Source of the DNA: Bacteroidota bacterium
GTDB lineage: Bacteria; Bacteroidota; Bacteroidia; Chitinophagales; Chitinophagaceae
Direction: 5' to 3'
DNA: 64,000 nt
Assembly: GCA_005798905.1 (NCBI GenBank)
Contig: SYIK01000004.1
Location: forward strand, 1-64,000
Shown piece after piece: positions 1 through 9,310 of this stretch. Position 1 is the first letter of the stretch; the number at the start of each line of letters is the position of its first letter. Made by a program: the position numbers and the translations under genes. The notes beneath the pieces were generated by a model that saw nothing but the letters and a program-made list of their open reading frames with translations, ran no database searches and was not told the origin of the DNA.

Positions 1-29
1 AATAAAAACAACTATTTTCGGAGCCACTG

Positions 30-156
30 CGCCCAACACGAGATTGCCGTAATTTTGGAGCAGCCCATTGGTGTCAACCGTTTTTTGAGTGGCTTTTCCA
101 TCCTCGTTCCTCGGATGGCCGCCCCAAAACAACGGCAATCTCCGATCCGTTGTGCG
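30..156. repeat. attC-like integron recombination site (upstream copy)
   Basis: Imperfect palindrome. R''-like CGCCCAAC (30-37) faces R'-like GTTGTGCG (149-156), 7/8 paired. Inside is a long stem CGAGATTGCCGT-AATTTTGG / CCAAAACAACGGCAATCTCCG, separated from the R boxes by unpaired spacers. The loop holds a secondary hairpin CCATCC..GGATGG. Confidence 0.6.
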
Positions 157-206
157 AAATGGTTTTGGAACACAATAATTAAAAAAGTAATTTTTAGGGA
201 AACAAT

Positions 207-1121
207 ATGGCACTTTATAACTTACAGAATCAAAAGTTACAAATCATCAAAGAAGATTCTTTTAAATTAGAAAAAGATATTCAAGCAATAACAGAAAAAA
301 ATCTTGAATATATTTTTGGACTAAAATTTATAAAATCAGAATTTTCACTGAACAATCTTAGAATTGATAGTTTGGCTTTTGATAATGATAGTAAAAGTTT
401 TGTAATCATTGAATATAAGAGAGACAAAAATTTCAGTGTCATTGATCAAGGGTATGCCTATCTTTCTTTGATGTTAAATAATAAGGCTGATTTTATTTTG
501 GAATACAATGAAAGCACAAATACGAATCTAAAAAGAGATGATGTGGACTGGTCTCAATCAAGAGTAATGTTCGTATCACCAGCATTTTCTAAATATCAAC
601 AACAAGCAATAAATTTTAGAGATTTACCAATTGAATTATGGGAAATCACAAAATATCAAGATAATTTAATTCAATATAGCAGATTAAAATCGCCTGAAAC
701 TTCTGAGTCAATAAATAAAATCAGTAAATCCAGTGAAATCGTTGATAAGGTTACTGAAGAAGTAAAGGTTTATACAGAAGAAGATCACTTAAAATCTGCT
801 GATGAAGAAATTCTGTCTCTTTATGAAGAATTTAAAAACCAAATTTTAAATTTAGATGATAAAATTGAAGTTGTGCCAAAGAAGAAATATATTGCTTTCA
901 AAGCATCTTCTAATTTTATTGATGTTTTACCACAAAAAGGGAAAATTAAATTTTGGTTAAACATTCCAAAAGGAGAGCTGAATGATCCATATAATATAAG
1001 TAGAGATGTTTCTGAAATAGGTCATTGGGGAAATGGTGATTATGAATTTAGTTTAAATTCTTCATCTGATTTTATAAATTTAATGCCCTTGATAAAGCAA
1101 AGTTATGAAAGGAATAAATAA
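207..1121 (+). CDS. DUF5655-like protein with N-terminal PD-(D/E)XK-like nuclease fold (putative cassette cargo)
   Basis: ORF of 304 aa. Motif D..(x)..IIEYKRDKNFSVIDQGYAYLSLM resembles a PD-(D/E)XK core. The C-terminus (HLKSADEEILSLYEEFKNQIL...ISRDVSEIGHWGNGDYEFSL) resembles the DUF5655 family. Confidence 0.75.
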   Translation: MALYNLQNQKLQIIKEDSFKLEKDIQAITEKNLEYIFGLKFIKSEFSLNNLRIDSLAFDNDSKSFVIIEYKRDKNFSVIDQGYAYLSLMLNNKADFILEYNESTNTNLKRDDVDWSQSRVMFVSPAFSKYQQQAINFRDLPIELWEITKYQDNLIQYSRLKSPETSESINKISKSSEIVDKVTEEVKVYTEEDHLKSADEEILSLYEEFKNQILNLDDKIEVVPKKKYIAFKASSNFIDVLPQKGKIKFWLNIPKGELNDPYNISRDVSEIGHWGNGDYEFSLNSSSDFINLMPLIKQSYERNK

Positions 1122-1171
1122 AAATTGCTTTTAGAAAAAGGGGGCTCCAAAACCACTCAAACCCTTCGGGT

Positions 1172-1275
1172 CGCACAACAGCTGATATCTGCAAGGGCTA
1201 AAGCCACATTTTGTCACACTCAATTGATTTTTAATGGAAGTGATAAAACGTCAGATATCAGCAAACGTTATGTGC
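1172..1275. repeat. attC-like integron recombination site (downstream copy)
   Basis: CGCACAAC (1172-1179) / GTTATGTGC (1267-1275) outer boxes; perfect 11-bp inner stem GCTGATATCTG / CAGATATCAGC; short unpaired spacers; secondary stem TTTTGTCAC / GTGATAAAA in the terminal part. Confidence 0.5.
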
Positions 1276-2506: not shown

Positions 2507-4006
2507 ATGCCTACCATTGCAATTATAGGTTCCGGTTTTTCAGGTTTAAGTGCTGCTTGTTATTTATCACAAGCCGGACATCGTGTGCATGTGTTTGAAA
2601 AAAATAATTCGGTTGGTGGCAGAGCAAGACAGTTGAAAACAGCAGCGGGATACTTATTTGACATGGGTCCGAGTTGGTATTGGATGCCTGATGTGTTTGA
2701 AAGATTCTTCAGTGATTTTGGATACAAAGTTTCTGATTTCTATGAATTGAATTTGCTGAATCCATCTTTTGATGTGGTATTCGAAGAAGGAGACAAAATG
2801 AGTGTGCCTGAAAATTTTGAAGTGTTGTGCAATCTGTTTGAATCAATTGAAACAGGAAGTGCAGTTCAGCTTAAAAAATTTATGAAGGAGGCAGCATACA
2901 AATACAAAACTGGAATTGAAAATTTGGTTTACAAACCCGGACTTTCCATTGCTGAGTTTGCTGATTTGAATTTGATAAAAGGTGCATTTCGTTTGCAGGT
3001 ATTCTCTTCTTTCAGTAAGCATGTTCGGAAATATTTTTCACATCCGAAATTAATTGCATTGATGGAGTTTCCTGTTTTGTTTTTGGGTGCTATGCCGCAA
3101 GACACTCCTGCATTGTATAGCTTAATGAATTATGCCGGACTTAAATTAGGAACATGGTATCCACAGGGAGGTTTTGGAAAAGTGATAGAAGCTATGAAAA
3201 ATGTAGCAGAAAAGAACGGAACTCATTTTCATTTGAATGCAACAGTTGAGAAAATTGAAATTGAAAATAATCAGGCAAAAAATATTGTGGTGAATGGTGA
3301 AAGATTTAATTGCGATGCTGTTATTGCTTCTGCCGATTATCATCATGTGGAAAGTAAATTATTGCCAAAGGAATTCAGAAACTATGATGAAAATTATTGG
3401 GGAGAAAAAACTTTTGCCCCCTCCTCTCTGATTTATTTTTTAGGAATAAATAAAAAAATATCTGCTCTGAATCATCATACCTTATTTTTTGACGAAGACC
3501 TCAATCAGCATTCAATAGAAATATATAAACAAACCAAATGGCCAAGCAAACCGTTGTTTTATGTATGCTGTCCCTCAAAGACTGATGATGAAGTTGCACC
3601 GCAAGGTCATGAAAATATTTTTCTGCTGATGCCCATTGCTCCCGGACTAAAAGATTCTGAAGAAATGAGAGAAAAATATTTTCAACTGATGATTTCAAGA
3701 TTAGAAAAGCAAGTGAATGAAAATATTTCAAATCATATTGACTTCAAAAAAAGTTATTGCGTAAACGATTTTATTTCGGATTACAATTCATACAAAGGCA
3801 ATGCATACGGGCTTGCAAATACGCTGATGCAAACAGCAATCTTTAAACCTAAAATCATAAATAAAAAAGTGGAAAACCTTTTTTATACCGGCCAACTTAC
3901 AGTTCCGGGACCGGGTGTTCCTCCTTCCATTATATCAGGCAAAATTGCCGCTGAACAATTACTAAAATATTTAAACAAGACAGAAGATGAAGTCGTTATT
4001 CGATAG
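2507..4006 (+). CDS. crtI: Phytoene desaturase
   Basis: 499 aa; N-terminal dinucleotide-binding motif IAIIGSGFSGLSAACYLSQAGHRVHVFEKN; C-terminal FYTGQLTVPGPGVPPSIISGKIAAEQ. Confidence 0.93.
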   Translation: MPTIAIIGSGFSGLSAACYLSQAGHRVHVFEKNNSVGGRARQLKTAAGYLFDMGPSWYWMPDVFERFFSDFGYKVSDFYELNLLNPSFDVVFEEGDKMSVPENFEVLCNLFESIETGSAVQLKKFMKEAAYKYKTGIENLVYKPGLSIAEFADLNLIKGAFRLQVFSSFSKHVRKYFSHPKLIALMEFPVLFLGAMPQDTPALYSLMNYAGLKLGTWYPQGGFGKVIEAMKNVAEKNGTHFHLNATVEKIEIENNQAKNIVVNGERFNCDAVIASADYHHVESKLLPKEFRNYDENYWGEKTFAPSSLIYFLGINKKISALNHHTLFFDEDLNQHSIEIYKQTKWPSKPLFYVCCPSKTDDEVAPQGHENIFLLMPIAPGLKDSEEMREKYFQLMISRLEKQVNENISNHIDFKKSYCVNDFISDYNSYKGNAYGLANTLMQTAIFKPKIINKKVENLFYTGQLTVPGPGVPPSIISGKIAAEQLLKYLNKTEDEVVIR

Positions 4007-4823
4007 TGTATCGGTAAAGTGTAGCAAGCTAACAACCCGTGCTTACAGCACAAGTTTTTCTCTTGGGATATATTTCCTGAAGAACAAACTCCGCAATCCC
4101 ATTTATTCTATTTATGGTTTTGTAAGATTTGCCGATGAAATTGTTGACAGCTTTGAGGGATATAACAAAAAATATTTGTTGCAAAAATTCAAAGATGAAA
4201 CTTATGAGGCAATTGAAAATCGCATTTCCTTAAACCCAATTTTAAATTCTTTTCAGCATGTTGTTCATCAATATCAAATTAGTCATGATTTGATTGAAAG
4301 ATTTTTGAAAAGCATGGAAATGGATTTAGAGAAAGTTGATTATACCTCTGAAAAATATAAACAATACATTCTTGGTTCTGCTGAAGTTGTTGGGTTAATG
4401 TGTCTGCATGTTTTTACGGAAGGAAATAAAAAACTTTATGAAGAACTAAAACCATTTGCTATGAAATTGGGAGCAGCTTTTCAGAAAATAAATTTCTTGC
4501 GTGATATGAAAGCAGATTATCAGATTTTGGGAAGAACTTATTTCCCAAATGTTGACATGAGCAGATTTACATCGTGCACCAAACGAAAAATTGAAAATGA
4601 AATTGAACAAGATTTTAAAGAGGCATTAATAGGAATTAAAAAACTTCCGGCATCATCAAAAGGCGGAGTTTATCTGGCTTATGTTTATTACAATTCGTTA
4701 TTCAAAAAAATAAAAAAAGTGCCTGCACAAAAAATTCTTTCTGCAAGAATACGCATTAGCAACCGTGAAAAATTGGGGTTGATGTTCAACAGTATGTTTC
4801 AGTATAAATTAAACCTTGTATGA
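3987..4823 (+). CDS. crtB: Phytoene synthase
   Basis: 278 aa; squalene/phytoene synthase motifs YGFVRFADEIVDSF and QKINFLRDMKADYQILGRTYFP; overlaps crtI. Confidence 0.92.
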   Translation: MKSLFDSVSVKCSKLTTRAYSTSFSLGIYFLKNKLRNPIYSIYGFVRFADEIVDSFEGYNKKYLLQKFKDETYEAIENRISLNPILNSFQHVVHQYQISHDLIERFLKSMEMDLEKVDYTSEKYKQYILGSAEVVGLMCLHVFTEGNKKLYEELKPFAMKLGAAFQKINFLRDMKADYQILGRTYFPNVDMSRFTSCTKRKIENEIEQDFKEALIGIKKLPASSKGGVYLAYVYYNSLFKKIKKVPAQKILSARIRISNREKLGLMFNSMFQYKLNLV

Positions 4824-5320
4824 GAATAATTATTTTCTTCTTCATCTTATTGTTTTCAGCAGCACATGCCGATGATATTCCGCTGAATACAATTCGTGAG
4901 CAATATAAAAGTGCTGCCACCAATGAAGGTGCTTGCAAAAATATGATTAGTATTTCAGAAAAATATAGCGTAGCTGAAAACTCCACACTTGTAGCATACA
5001 ATGCTTGTGCAACCATGATGATGGCGAATTATGTGTATAATCCATTCAGTAAATTATCTTATTTTAATGAAGGAAAAAAGTTACTTGAACAATGTATAAC
5101 TGTTGATAGTGCAAATATTGAAATCCGCTATTTGCGATTCACCATTCAAACAAAAGCACCGTCATTTTTGGGTTACAATAGTTCAATTGAAAAAGACAAA
5201 TTATTCCTGCGTAGAGAAATCAGCAATGTAAAAGATTTGCAATTGAAGCAAATGATTATTTCATTTTTGAAATCTTCGGAGCATTTAACCTTGATAGAAA
5301 AGCAAAATTTAAAATCATGA
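4820..5320 (+). CDS. Uncharacterised secreted protein in carotenoid operon
   Basis: 166 aa with N-terminal signal peptide (MRIIIFFFILLFSAAHA); overlaps crtB and idi by 4 bp each. Confidence 0.8.
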   Translation: MRIIIFFFILLFSAAHADDIPLNTIREQYKSAATNEGACKNMISISEKYSVAENSTLVAYNACATMMMANYVYNPFSKLSYFNEGKKLLEQCITVDSANIEIRYLRFTIQTKAPSFLGYNSSIEKDKLFLRREISNVKDLQLKQMIISFLKSSEHLTLIEKQNLKS

Positions 5321-5868
5321 ACGACTATTTAATATTGGTAGATGAAAAAGATAAGCCATGGGGAAAATTGGAAAAACAACTTGTGCATGAATTAGGATTG
5401 TTGCACCGGGCTTTTTCGGTTTTCATTTTTACTTCAAAAGGTGAATTGCTTCTACAGCAGAGAGCAGATGAGAAATATCATTCCGGTGGTTTATGGACAA
5501 ACACCTGTTGCAGCCACCCACGATTTGGAGAAGAAAATACTTGGGCTATAGAAAGACGATTGCAAGAGGAAATGGGAATGAAATGCAATACTGAATTCGC
5601 ATTCAGTTTTACTTACAAAACAAAATTTGAAAATGGTTTAACTGAACATGAATATGACCATGTCTATTTTGGAGTGACTGATGATTTACCTTTTCCTGAA
5701 AAATCAGAAGTGCAAAACTGGAAATATATCAGCTTAGAAAATCTTGAACAAGATATTCTTATTCACCCTGAAAAATATACTGAGTGGATGAAGATTTGTT
5801 TGCCGGAAGTGAAAAAACATTTTAATAATTATTTTAAAAATATTGCCAACGAATATGCATCAGTTTAA
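5317..5868 (+). CDS. idi: Isopentenyl-diphosphate delta-isomerase, type I
   Basis: 183 aa Nudix-like protein; GLWTNTCCSHPRFGEE and RLQEEMGM motifs. Confidence 0.93.
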   Translation: MNDYLILVDEKDKPWGKLEKQLVHELGLLHRAFSVFIFTSKGELLLQQRADEKYHSGGLWTNTCCSHPRFGEENTWAIERRLQEEMGMKCNTEFAFSFTYKTKFENGLTEHEYDHVYFGVTDDLPFPEKSEVQNWKYISLENLEQDILIHPEKYTEWMKICLPEVKKHFNNYFKNIANEYASV

Positions 5869-6328
5869 AGCAGAACAGTTTTTACCAATTGATATAAATA
5901 AAGCATGGGAATTTTTCTCTTCGCCAAAAAATCTTTCAAGAATAACTCCACCGGAAATGGATTTTAAAATTTTAAGTTCATTAAATGGAGTAGAAATATT
6001 TGAAGGAATGAAAATAGATTACACTGTTAAACCACTCTATGGTATTTCAGTTCGTTGGCAAACCGAAATTTGTAAAGTTCAAAATCAAAAATATTTTACA
6101 GATAGACAGGCCAAAGGACCATATAAAATATGGGAGCACGCACATACATTTTCAGAGGTTGATGGTGGAGTGCTAATGCATGATGTGGTAAATTATAAAT
6201 TGCCTTTCGGATTTATCGGCAGAGCATTGAATTCAATTTTAGTAAAAAGGAAAATTGAAATTATTTTTGAGTACAGAAAACAAATTCTTGAAATAATATT
6301 TATGTCAAATGGAAACAGCAATAATTAA
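5855..6328 (+). CDS. SRPBCC (START-like) family protein
   Basis: MHQFKAEQFLPIDINKAWEFFSSPKNLSRITPPEM is a typical SRPBCC N-terminus. Track ORF starts at 5843. Confidence 0.8.
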   Translation: MHQFKAEQFLPIDINKAWEFFSSPKNLSRITPPEMDFKILSSLNGVEIFEGMKIDYTVKPLYGISVRWQTEICKVQNQKYFTDRQAKGPYKIWEHAHTFSEVDGGVLMHDVVNYKLPFGFIGRALNSILVKRKIEIIFEYRKQILEIIFMSNGNSNN

Positions 6329-6779
6329 TTTTTTAATAGTACTTGCATCTTTCCTTAGTATGGAAGGCGTTGCATGGTTTACACATAAGTTCGTTATGCA
6401 CGGTTTGCTATGGAGTTTGCACAAAGACCATCATAAGAAAGAATCAAGTGGTTTTTTTGAGCACAACGATTTTTTCTTTTTGACTTTTGCCTTGCCCGGT
6501 ATTGCAGGATTGTTTTTCGGAATGCAGCAGGGTTATAATTTTCTTTTTTGGATAGGTCTGGGAATTACGATTTATGGCTTCGCCTATTTTTTTGTGCATG
6601 ATATTTTTATACATCAGCGGTTCAAATTTTTGAGAAAAGCAGACAACAAATATTTCAAAGCCATACGAAGAGCACATAAAATGCATCACAAACATTTGGG
6701 TAAAGAAGAGGGAGAATGTTTCGGAATGTTGTGGGTTCCTTTTAAATATTTCAGAAAAACTAATTCACTTTTAGACTGA
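6309..6779 (+). CDS. crtZ: Beta-carotene hydroxylase (fatty acid hydroxylase superfamily)
   Basis: 156 aa; His clusters HKFVMHG, HKDHHK, HDIFIHQRF, RAHKMHHKH. Confidence 0.9.
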   Translation: METAIINFLIVLASFLSMEGVAWFTHKFVMHGLLWSLHKDHHKKESSGFFEHNDFFFLTFALPGIAGLFFGMQQGYNFLFWIGLGITIYGFAYFFVHDIFIHQRFKFLRKADNKYFKAIRRAHKMHHKHLGKEEGECFGMLWVPFKYFRKTNSLLD

Positions 6780-7501
6780 TGAAATGGACTTATTTATTGG
6801 TGAATTTATTTACGGTTATTGTTCCGTTTATTTTTTCATTTCATCCTAAATTAAAATTTTACAAGAAATTCAAACTGTTCTATCTTGCAAATATTTTCAT
6901 TGCTGTTTTATTCATTTGTTGGGATGTTCTGTTTACAAAAATTCGTGTTTGGGGTTTCAACCCAGATTATGTTTTAGGAATATATTTTTTAAATCTGCCA
7001 ATAGAGGAAATTTTATTTTTCATCTGTATTCCTTTTGCATGTGTGTTCACTTACCACTGTTTGAATATATTTTTCAAATTACAATGGTCAGCAAAAATTG
7101 AAAACATTTTTGTGTTATGTTTTTCCTTATTGCTACTTTTTGTTGGAATACTTTTTCATTCAAAATTATACACTTCAACTACTTTCATTAGTTTAGGAAT
7201 TCTGCTTTTAGTTTTGAAATATGGTTTCAAAATTAAATGGCTTGCAAAGTTGGTTCTCATCTATCCTGTTTTGTTAATTCCATTTTTTATTGTGAATGGA
7301 ATACTTACAGGAACTGGACTGCAGCATCCTATTGTATGGTATAGCGATTCGGAAAATATAGGAATACGATTATTGACGATTCCTATTGAAGATATTTTTT
7401 ATGGATTTGAATTGATACTGCTAAACATTTTTCTCTTTGAATATTTTAAAAACCGAAACAACAACTCTAAAATTATTTATGACGAACAAAACATTTATTA
7501 A
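6779..7501 (+). CDS. Lycopene cyclase domain protein (fused CrtYcd type)
   Basis: 240 aa membrane protein with two cyclase repeats carrying LPIEEILFF and IPIEDIFYGF motifs. Confidence 0.85.
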   Translation: MKWTYLLVNLFTVIVPFIFSFHPKLKFYKKFKLFYLANIFIAVLFICWDVLFTKIRVWGFNPDYVLGIYFLNLPIEEILFFICIPFACVFTYHCLNIFFKLQWSAKIENIFVLCFSLLLLFVGILFHSKLYTSTTFISLGILLLVLKYGFKIKWLAKLVLIYPVLLIPFFIVNGILTGTGLQHPIVWYSDSENIGIRLLTIPIEDIFYGFELILLNIFLFEYFKNRNNNSKIIYDEQNIY

Positions 7502-8000
7502 TTCACTGCTTATACTTTTTATGTCAACAACAATTACTCATTCACAAACCTTGCAAACAGTTCCTTTTGTTGATTTGAAAAAATACGCAGGCAAATGGTA
7601 TGAAATTGCTTCGTATCCTCAGCGATTTCAGAAAGGTTGCAACTGCACAACAGCAGAATATACTTTAAGTGAAAAAGGATTTGTGATAGTTGAAAATCGT
7701 TGCAAAAAAGATAGTGTGAATGGCAAAGAATCCTACATTAAAGGAAAGGCATTTGTTGAAAAAGATTCAAGTAATTCAAAATTGAAAGTGCAATTCTTTT
7801 GGCCCTTTACCGGAAAATATTGGATAATTGATTTGGCAGATGATTACAGCTATGCAGTGGTTAGTCATCCAAACAAAAAATATTTGTGGATTCTTTCACG
7901 AAAACCAAAGATGGATGATGCTATTTACCAGCAAATACTTTCTAGACTAAAAGAAAAAGGATTTGATTTATTGAAATTAAAAATCACAACACAAATTTGA
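7437..8000 (+). CDS. Lipocalin family protein (Blc-like)
   Basis: VDLKKYAGKWYEIASYPQRFQKGCNCTTAEY and YLWILSRKP lipocalin motifs. A later in-frame ATG is likely the true start, given the 65-bp overlap with the cyclase gene. Confidence 0.87.
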   Translation: MNILKTETTTLKLFMTNKTFINSLLILFMSTTITHSQTLQTVPFVDLKKYAGKWYEIASYPQRFQKGCNCTTAEYTLSEKGFVIVENRCKKDSVNGKESYIKGKAFVEKDSSNSKLKVQFFWPFTGKYWIIDLADDYSYAVVSHPNKKYLWILSRKPKMDDAIYQQILSRLKEKGFDLLKLKITTQI

Positions 8001-9310
8001 AAAACATAAAACCTGTTTCCGTTTTTTGGTTTCGCAGAGATTTGCGTTTGCATGACAATCACGGGTTTTATCAATCCTTAAAAAATTCAAGTGATGTGTT
8101 GCCTGTTTTCATTTTTGATAAAAACATCCTTGAACAGCTTTCTGATAAAAGGGACAAACGGATTTCATTCATTCATCAAACATTAAATACCTTATATGAT
8201 GAATTGATTAAACACGGTTCTTCATTGTTTGTGTTGCAGGATGAACCTTTACATGCAATCAAAATTATCTGCGATTCATTTTCTGTAAAATCAGTTTTTA
8301 CCAATCACGATTACGAACCCTATGCCATTGAAAGGGATTCAAAAATTAAAGAATGGTTAGAATCAAAAAATATTTCGTTTCATACTTTTAAAGACCAGGT
8401 GATTTTTGAAAAGAATGAAGTGATGAAATCCGATGGAACTCCTTACACCATATTTACTCCTTATTCAAAAATCTGGAAGCAAAAATTAGCAGAAGAAAAA
8501 ATCAAAACATTTCCATCTGAAAATTTATTGTCTAATCTTTTTAAAACAAAACCATTTCATTTTCCGTCACTCATCGAAATTGGATTTGAGAAATCTAAAA
8601 CTAAAATTCCTTCAATAGAAATCAATAAACAAATAGTGAGTAGTTATCATCTCACCAGAAATCTTCCTGCATTAAATGGAACAAGCAAGTTGAGTATTCA
8701 CCTGCGTTTTGGAACTGTTAGTATCAGAGAACTAGCAGCTACTGCATTGCAATTAAACGAACAATGGCTGAACGAATTAATCTGGAGAGATTTTTTTATG
8801 ATGATACTTTTTCAATTTCCATATGTGGGAAATAGAAGTTTTAAAATAAAATATGAAAATATTGAGTGGAGAAATAACGAAACTGAATTTGAAAAATGGT
8901 GTAATGGAGAAACCGGATATCCGATTGTTGATGCCGGCATGAGAGAGTTAAATGAAACCGGTTTTATGCATAACCGTGTGCGAATGATTGTGGCAAGTTT
9001 TTTAACCAAACATTTGTTGATAGACTGGCGATGGGGTGAAGCCTATTTTGCAGAAAAACTTTTGGACTACGAACTTTCATCCAACAATGGCAACTGGCAG
9101 TGGGCAGCAGGTTGCGGATGCGATGCTGCTCCTTGCTTCCGCATTTTTAACCCGACAGAACAAACAAAAAGGTTTGACCAAGAAATGATTTATATTAAAA
9201 AATGGATACCGAATTTTACTTCAAATTACTTACCACCAATTGTTGAACATGCCTTTGCAAGAAGAAGAGCATTGGAAGTATTTAAAAAATCATTGCGGGA
9301 AAATTACTGA
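7997..9310 (+). CDS. Deoxyribodipyrimidine photolyase / cryptochrome family
   Basis: 437 aa; WFRRDLRLHDN N-terminus; NNGNWQWAAGCGCDAAPCFRIFNP FAD-binding motif; TTG start overlapping the upstream stop. Confidence 0.92.
   Translation: MKNIKPVSVFWFRRDLRLHDNHGFYQSLKNSSDVLPVFIFDKNILEQLSDKRDKRISFIHQTLNTLYDELIKHGSSLFVLQDEPLHAIKIICDSFSVKSVFTNHDYEPYAIERDSKIKEWLESKNISFHTFKDQVIFEKNEVMKSDGTPYTIFTPYSKIWKQKLAEEKIKTFPSENLLSNLFKTKPFHFPSLIEIGFEKSKTKIPSIEINKQIVSSYHLTRNLPALNGTSKLSIHLRFGTVSIRELAATALQLNEQWLNELIWRDFFMMILFQFPYVGNRSFKIKYENIEWRNNETEFEKWCNGETGYPIVDAGMRELNETGFMHNRVRMIVASFLTKHLLIDWRWGEAYFAEKLLDYELSSNNGNWQWAAGCGCDAAPCFRIFNPTEQTKRFDQEMIYIKKWIPNFTSNYLPPIVEHAFARRRALEVFKKSLRENY

Follow-up and report, generated by a model that had tools for sequence, protein, structure and literature searches.

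A single-gene cassette that very probably closes an integron-like array linked to a recombinase without the IntI additional domain in Bacteroidota

Classical integrons, whether mobile (classes 1-3) or chromosomal, are built around the IntI integrase: an integrase gene and an attI site are accompanied by mostly single-gene cassettes in one direction, with palindromic sites of R''-L''-L'-R' architecture, a variable centre, a G|TT crossover and a cargo rich in defence genes. The Bacteroidota arrays described here resemble them in all of these respects, the crossover as judged by sequence. In the circular form of an integron cassette, start and end make up one site, which yields the rule that the start of a cassette is complementary to its own R'' box; to our knowledge, this is not expected of terminators or ordinary repeats. 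We also know of no XerA or archaeal Xer enzyme that is linked to cassette arrays.

The additional domain of IntI has been taken as necessary for integron recombination (PMC9668308, PMC8138268), and the archaeal integron paper treats it as a defining character (PMC9668308). In the passages of Smyshlyaev et al. (2021; PMC8138268) that deal with the integron-like subgroup of tyrosine recombinases, this insertion is not fully conserved, so that members without it have been seen in sequence surveys; the same passages describe no cassette arrays, attI or attC for such members. For the Bacteroidetes, the IntegronFinder 2.0 survey reported nothing beyond In0 elements and a single complete integron, that of Salinibacter ruber (PMC9024848), so that the arrays described here appear to have been overlooked there. 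Our literature search, which did not extend to bioRxiv and most subscription journals, found no description of the system presented below. Since the NCBI model NF040815 is labelled 'site-specific tyrosine recombinase/integron integrase', such proteins may bear the name of integron integrases without the system having been described.

The window analyzed here, 64,000 nucleotides long, is the left end of a 92,188-bp contig (C18) of a Bacteroidota genome, with window base 1 being contig base 1. We conclude with high confidence that positions 150-1267 are the last cassette of an integron-like array, consisting of a recombinase, an attI-like GTT and single-gene cassettes in one direction, on a Bacteroidota chromosome. 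The relevant features, all on the forward strand, are as follows.

1-149, + strand: 3' part of site A, attC-like, closing the 284-bp cassette that comes before, with the outer arm of the site upstream of window base 1
40-142, + strand: inner hairpin of site A, GAGATTGCCG (40-49) with CGGCAATCTC (133-142), from an inverted-repeat search (85% complementary over 26 nt) and folding
149-151, + strand: crossover GTT, with a putative cut between G149 and T150; the window equals contig C5 through this GTT and differs from base 152
150-1267, + strand: gene cassette of 1118 bp, whose start GTTGTGCG is the reverse complement of R'' CGCACAAC
207-1121, + strand: cargo gene, 304 aa, PADLOC candidate PDC-S18, with a C-terminal DUF5655 and a weak nuclease-like N-terminus
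1172-1179, + strand: R'' box of site B, CGCACAAC
1181-1191, + strand: L''-like left arm of site B, GCTGATATCTG
1252-1262, + strand: L'-like right arm of site B, CAGATATCAGC, followed by the spacer AAAC (1263-1266)
1267-1275, + strand: R' box of site B, GTTATGTGC, with a putative crossover between G1267 and T1268; the same box occurs in the site at C11:136

An earlier note, made from the letters of the window, had placed a single ORF (207-1121) between two attC-like palindromes. Both palindromes are present, with the boxes it named at the positions it gave, and both fold better as single-stranded DNA than dinucleotide shuffles (z = -2.6 for site A, where 4 of 200 shuffles did as well, and z = -3.5 for site B, where none of 200 did). 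Its choice of R'' and L'' for site A fell on the wrong bases: CGCCCAAC (30-37) and GAGATTGCCG form the inner part of that site, whereas the functional outer arm, R'' GCGGTTCAAC plus GGATCGGAGA, pairs with TCTCCGATCC at 139-148 and is located on contig C7, at about 524-580 on the minus strand. There, AACGGATCGGAGA, the outer arm of the 284-bp cassette, pairs with window TCTCCGATCCGTT (139-151, including TCTCCGATCC), which places the true outer arm of site A outside the window.

The limits of the cassette follow from the complementarity of its two ends and from a second copy of its left flank. GTTGTGCG, at 149-156, finds its exact complement in the R'' box of site B. Window 12-151 is identical to positions 1-140 of contig C5, at the start of that contig, through the shared GTT; the sequences then differ, the C5 unit carrying another gene, for a PIF1-like helicase, and closing in a palindrome whose R'' GCCGATAAC is the complement of the unit start GTTATCGGC. 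As the start of each unit is complementary to its own R'', the window cassette corresponds to 150-1267, with the start proposed earlier and an end one base short of the proposed one (about 1268). Unit structure, complementarity of start and R'', and the split of two contigs at GTT can all be read directly from the assembled sequence, and they strongly support the interpretation of 150-1267 as one recombination cassette with one gene.

Site B would be the last site of this array before the chromosomal genes, and no complementary R'' for its R' box was found downstream. An Rfam scan of the window returned zero matches. Beyond the array, positions 2507-9310 read like a carotenoid cluster behind a MerR-type regulator, with phytoene desaturase- and synthase-like genes, an isopentenyl isomerase, a hydroxylase and a cyclase-like gene, followed by a photolyase-like gene. 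Relatives of the MerR-type neighbor in congeners are just 32-37% identical, and the locus is not kept in congeners.

The contig breaks at window base 1, and the window consequently holds no integrase. The earlier note, which saw no intI, had suggested that the array might extend beyond base 1, and in the same genome further units, or an integrase, were indeed identified on contigs C5, C7, C17 and C19, making the window cassette the last unit of such an array. The right ends of C19 and C17 and the left end of C7 share one repeat, and the left end of C7 runs into the start of both the window and C5, the repeat on C7 overlapping the window by about 42 bp. A tyrosine recombinase, not an IntI, is encoded at the end of contig C19 (C19:335234-336100; 292 aa from the first ATG), and its stop codon lies about 100 bp before the GTT of the repeat (GTTGAACCGC at C19:336200). 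Between a GTT of the C19 type and the window lies the 284-bp cassette, which has no clear gene and whose R'' GCGGTTCAAC is the complement of GTTGAACCGC. Window base 1 would thereby connect to the C19 or the C17 element, through an assembly overlap and not through contiguous sequence.

By inspection, the element on C17 (C17:19900-20164), which is located upstream of fusA, retains both flanks and has lost the recombinase gene, and looks like a non-autonomous derivative of the integrase element. A third copy (C7:1-800, minus strand), upstream of typA, breaks off inside the attC-like site, apparently at an insertion sequence that includes a partial transposase ORF. The genome holds one other copy of the site B box ACGTTATGTGCAA; it lies 136 bp into contig C11 and is part of the palindrome GCACCTAAC A GCGTGTATGTG ... 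CACATACACGC AAAAC GTTATGTGC, which has an outer box similar to that of site B and a different inner stem. This attC-like site (C11:10-148) stands at the contig start, is followed by chromosomal sugar-nucleotide genes on the other strand, and is probably the end of another array.

To place this locus in a wider context, we surveyed the recombinase family, defined by alignment (A1) and called present at E <= 1e-80, and detected it in 162 of 296 sampled genomes of the class; regions 3' of the recombinase were inspected at about 120 loci. Among palindromic sites found by structure, 18 of 40 had a downstream box complementary to R' (0.2-3.5 kb downstream, at most one mismatch in 10), against 0 of 40 for a control in which the R' tail was reversed. 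Units proximal to attI, defined by a GTT within about 260 bp of the recombinase stop and by closure in a complementary R'' plus palindrome, were found at 18 of 40 loci under loose criteria, with 5 control hits, and under stricter criteria at 14 of 50 loci (control, 0) and 19 of 32 loci (control, 1). About half of the integrase loci had no rule-obeying cassette under the criteria used. The order of integrase, attI and cassettes, and the linkage to a single recombinase family, can be read directly from these sequences. The longest chains comprise nine cassettes (L233), seven (L206, L220 and L231), six in Algibacter onchidii (L137) and five in Rufibacter (L118). Outside the Bacteroidota, a Spirochaetota metagenome-assembled genome (L140) encodes an integrase of this kind, together with an attI-like start and a single cassette that obeys the rule and carries a methyltransferase gene.

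In 110 of 121 cassettes the largest ORF has the orientation of the array, and the first 63 cassettes have a median length of 1,066 bp. The 121 sites with paired arms present 74 distinct left-arm sequences, and their most common R''-to-R' length is 117-119 bp. Their consensus is (A)AAC-GTTR-N6-A for R' and YAAC-A for R'', the spacers being 1-4 nt and mostly 5-6 nt long. Within a site, R' and R'' are complementary at 3.35 of 7 positions, against 3.26 for boxes of unrelated sites, which is what one would expect of an R' that is part of the following cassette. Cassettes that carry different genes in different genera have site bodies with up to 96% identity, the examples being Algoriphagus (L112) with genome G187, and Winogradskyella (L126), Sphingobacteriales (L135) and Algibacter (L137). 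The converse arrangement was also observed: the second cassette of L095 and the fifth of L137, in two genomes, carry the same gene (89% identical over 795 bp) with different site bodies.

Several search patterns were discarded. In a palindrome scan by AAC..GTT alone, most scores overlapped those of shuffled controls, and AMCGTTRNNNGCAA, used as a site finder over the genome, gave 9 matches against 11 in the control, indicating that sites cannot be located by their R' box alone. Site length had at first seemed to follow a 32-bp periodicity, an idea dropped once 121 sites were available. Class 1 integron sites, included as a positive control, were missed by the strict stem search, whereas the looser start/R'' rule recovered one expected class 1 cassette, of the aacA4 type, so that this complementarity is common to both systems. 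The presence of exactly one stem mismatch in 60 of 63 sites is partly a product of the search rule and was not counted as evidence.

Assemblies tend to end at these arrays. Among the matches listed, 13 minus-strand recombinase genes lie less than 300 bp from a contig start, on their 3' side, against one plus-strand recombinase gene near a contig start on its 5' side. Of the remaining contigs, many end a short way past the recombinase gene, and two stop at the attI GTTA itself (L069 and L129). Such breaks 3' of the integrase are suggestive of mixed cassette content in the population, and hence of activity; with so many assemblies broken there, current genomes probably under-report these arrays.

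In an alignment of the array-linked enzymes the conserved residues of tyrosine recombinases are visible, and the KDR and HxLRH motifs are separated by 58-63 residues, versus 100-101 in 12 IntI proteins, with IntI1 and a protein from another genome of the order among them. This difference means that the IntI additional domain, an insertion of roughly 41 residues, is missing, an absence also seen in a profile search, which left TIGR02249 positions 181-238 unmatched. On the inferred tree, the IntI proteins form one clade (SH-aLRT 100) with the array-linked enzymes outside it. The C19 enzyme, the only integrase in its genome that is not a XerC/D-type match, likewise has no additional domain, falls outside the IntI clade, and scores 218 bits against the NF040815 cut-off of 220. 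In sequence, the nearest enzymes of solved structure are an archaeal XerC-like enzyme, XerA and, matched in two stretches, IntI4; in fold, XerA and IntI4 rank first (structure model with pLDDT 82 and pTM 0.55, the latter too low for a reading of the domain arrangement). XerA and archaeal Xer (NF040815; PDB 5hxy, 4a8e), the closest solved relatives by both measures, have no N-terminal HARP-like domain in the matched stretch.

Many array-linked recombinases have a short domain before the SAM-like domain. In the integrase N-terminus, HARP (PF07443) matched weakly in 2 members out of 17 (best E 7e-4; 16.5 bits against a cut-off of 25 in the example examined), none of the 17 exceeding the curated cut-off, and weak matches to DUF5710 occurred in 7 of 17 (best E 0.004). 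The 534-aa integrase of one locus (L072, 242-1843, minus strand) has an N-terminus apparently made of several HARP/DUF5710-like units. Unlike its relatives, the enzyme encoded on C19 has no such N-terminal domain; its tyrosine-recombinase motifs are intact, and it may represent a reduced copy.

These comparisons bear on the possibility, raised in the earlier note, of an integron array or a CALIN, which in its classical form would mean that the cassettes are moved by an IntI that is encoded elsewhere in the genome or has been lost. The window alone, with a cassette, sites and no integrase in view, does resemble a CALIN, the cassette logic and R/L architecture are the same, and a true IntI with the additional domain (422 bits) is encoded at 3295-4539 of locus L082, in one other genome of the same order (G054). 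However, the genome studied here has no IntI above cut-off and, unlike in a CALIN, does encode a non-IntI integrase, on C19, whose 3' repeat overlaps into the array. The linked enzymes lack the insertion and lie outside the IntI clade, often with a HARP/DUF5710-like N-terminus, and in many genomes the arrays begin directly after such a recombinase. Moreover, the strict core GTTRRRY is matched by just 7 of 120 sites, the core being instead C-GTTR-N6-A in sites of mostly 117-119 bp, and the Bacteroidota integrase gene reads towards its array, which lies 3' of it, whereas intI1 of the class 1 plasmid examined points away from its cassettes. We regard this explanation as largely refuted and, overall, improbable: the cassette proposed in the earlier note stands, and its assignment to a classical integron or CALIN does not.

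Xer enzymes are exploited by several mobile elements, and the genome encodes XerC/D-type proteins, so that host XerC/XerD could in principle move the cassettes while the linked recombinase is incidental. We consider this very unlikely, because the arrays start closely 3' of one specific recombinase family in many genomes and because a GTT crossover with long, variable palindromes is unlike dif, a conserved 28-bp site. That the palindromes are terminators, REP-like repeats or insertion-sequence remnants around an ordinary chromosomal gene has next to no probability, for although hairpins are common near gene ends and a separate terminator-like inverted repeat (AAAACACACTTTCATTTTTTTT / AAAAAAAATCAAAGAGTGTTTT, 1420-1487), which scores in the site scan without cassette features, lies in the window, start and R'' are complementary across hundreds of bases (18/40 against 0/40), an identical site body precedes different genes in two contigs, and the gene is absent from five congeners.

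On the integron-like reading, the platform would consist of a tyrosine recombinase gene, an attI-like GTT roughly 10-250 bp after its stop, and cassettes that each end in a palindromic attC-like site. The recombinase probably cuts G|TT in attI and attC and would join the G to the TT of an incoming circular cassette, which would account for the TT and own R' tail at the start of each cassette and for the complementary R'' box at its end. The exchange would be performed by a recombinase of the linked family and the cassettes would move as circles, with a folded single strand as the likely substrate, because the arms vary and yet stay self-complementary. The HARP/DUF5710-like N-terminal domain might replace the missing IntI domain in holding the folded DNA.

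The protein encoded in the window matches PADLOC PDC-S18 (E 1.3e-132) and a C-terminal DUF5655 (E 3.7e-16), with HSDR_N_2 and NucS_C matches below cut-off, and is probably a phage-defense protein. Its gene was not found in the five congeners searched and is patchily distributed in the family; its homologs in other genomes (L003-L006) showed no such sites by inspection, and a search of viral contigs with peptide patterns from the protein found no relative. Other cassettes encode a HaeII-type restriction enzyme, a TIR effector, PDC-M48B, an NB-ARC/TPR protein, an HNH nuclease, a superoxide dismutase, a cation efflux protein and numerous proteins that match no family.

We class this system as integron-like, as its anatomy would be that of an integron and its enzymes do not score or group as IntI. 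On balance, we lean towards the view that the Bacteroidota have an integron-like platform of their own, found in roughly half of the genomes sampled from the class, in which a recombinase without the IntI domain works with a HARP/DUF5710-like domain that holds the folded sites, and which would represent either a second origin of integrons or a branch predating the IntI insertion. If this is true, a large family follows the integron cassette logic without the additional domain, and the minimal requirements and the origin of integrons would become directly testable. Besides defense candidates, the arrays hold many genes of unknown function, and the phylum itself is abundant in gut, soil and sea.
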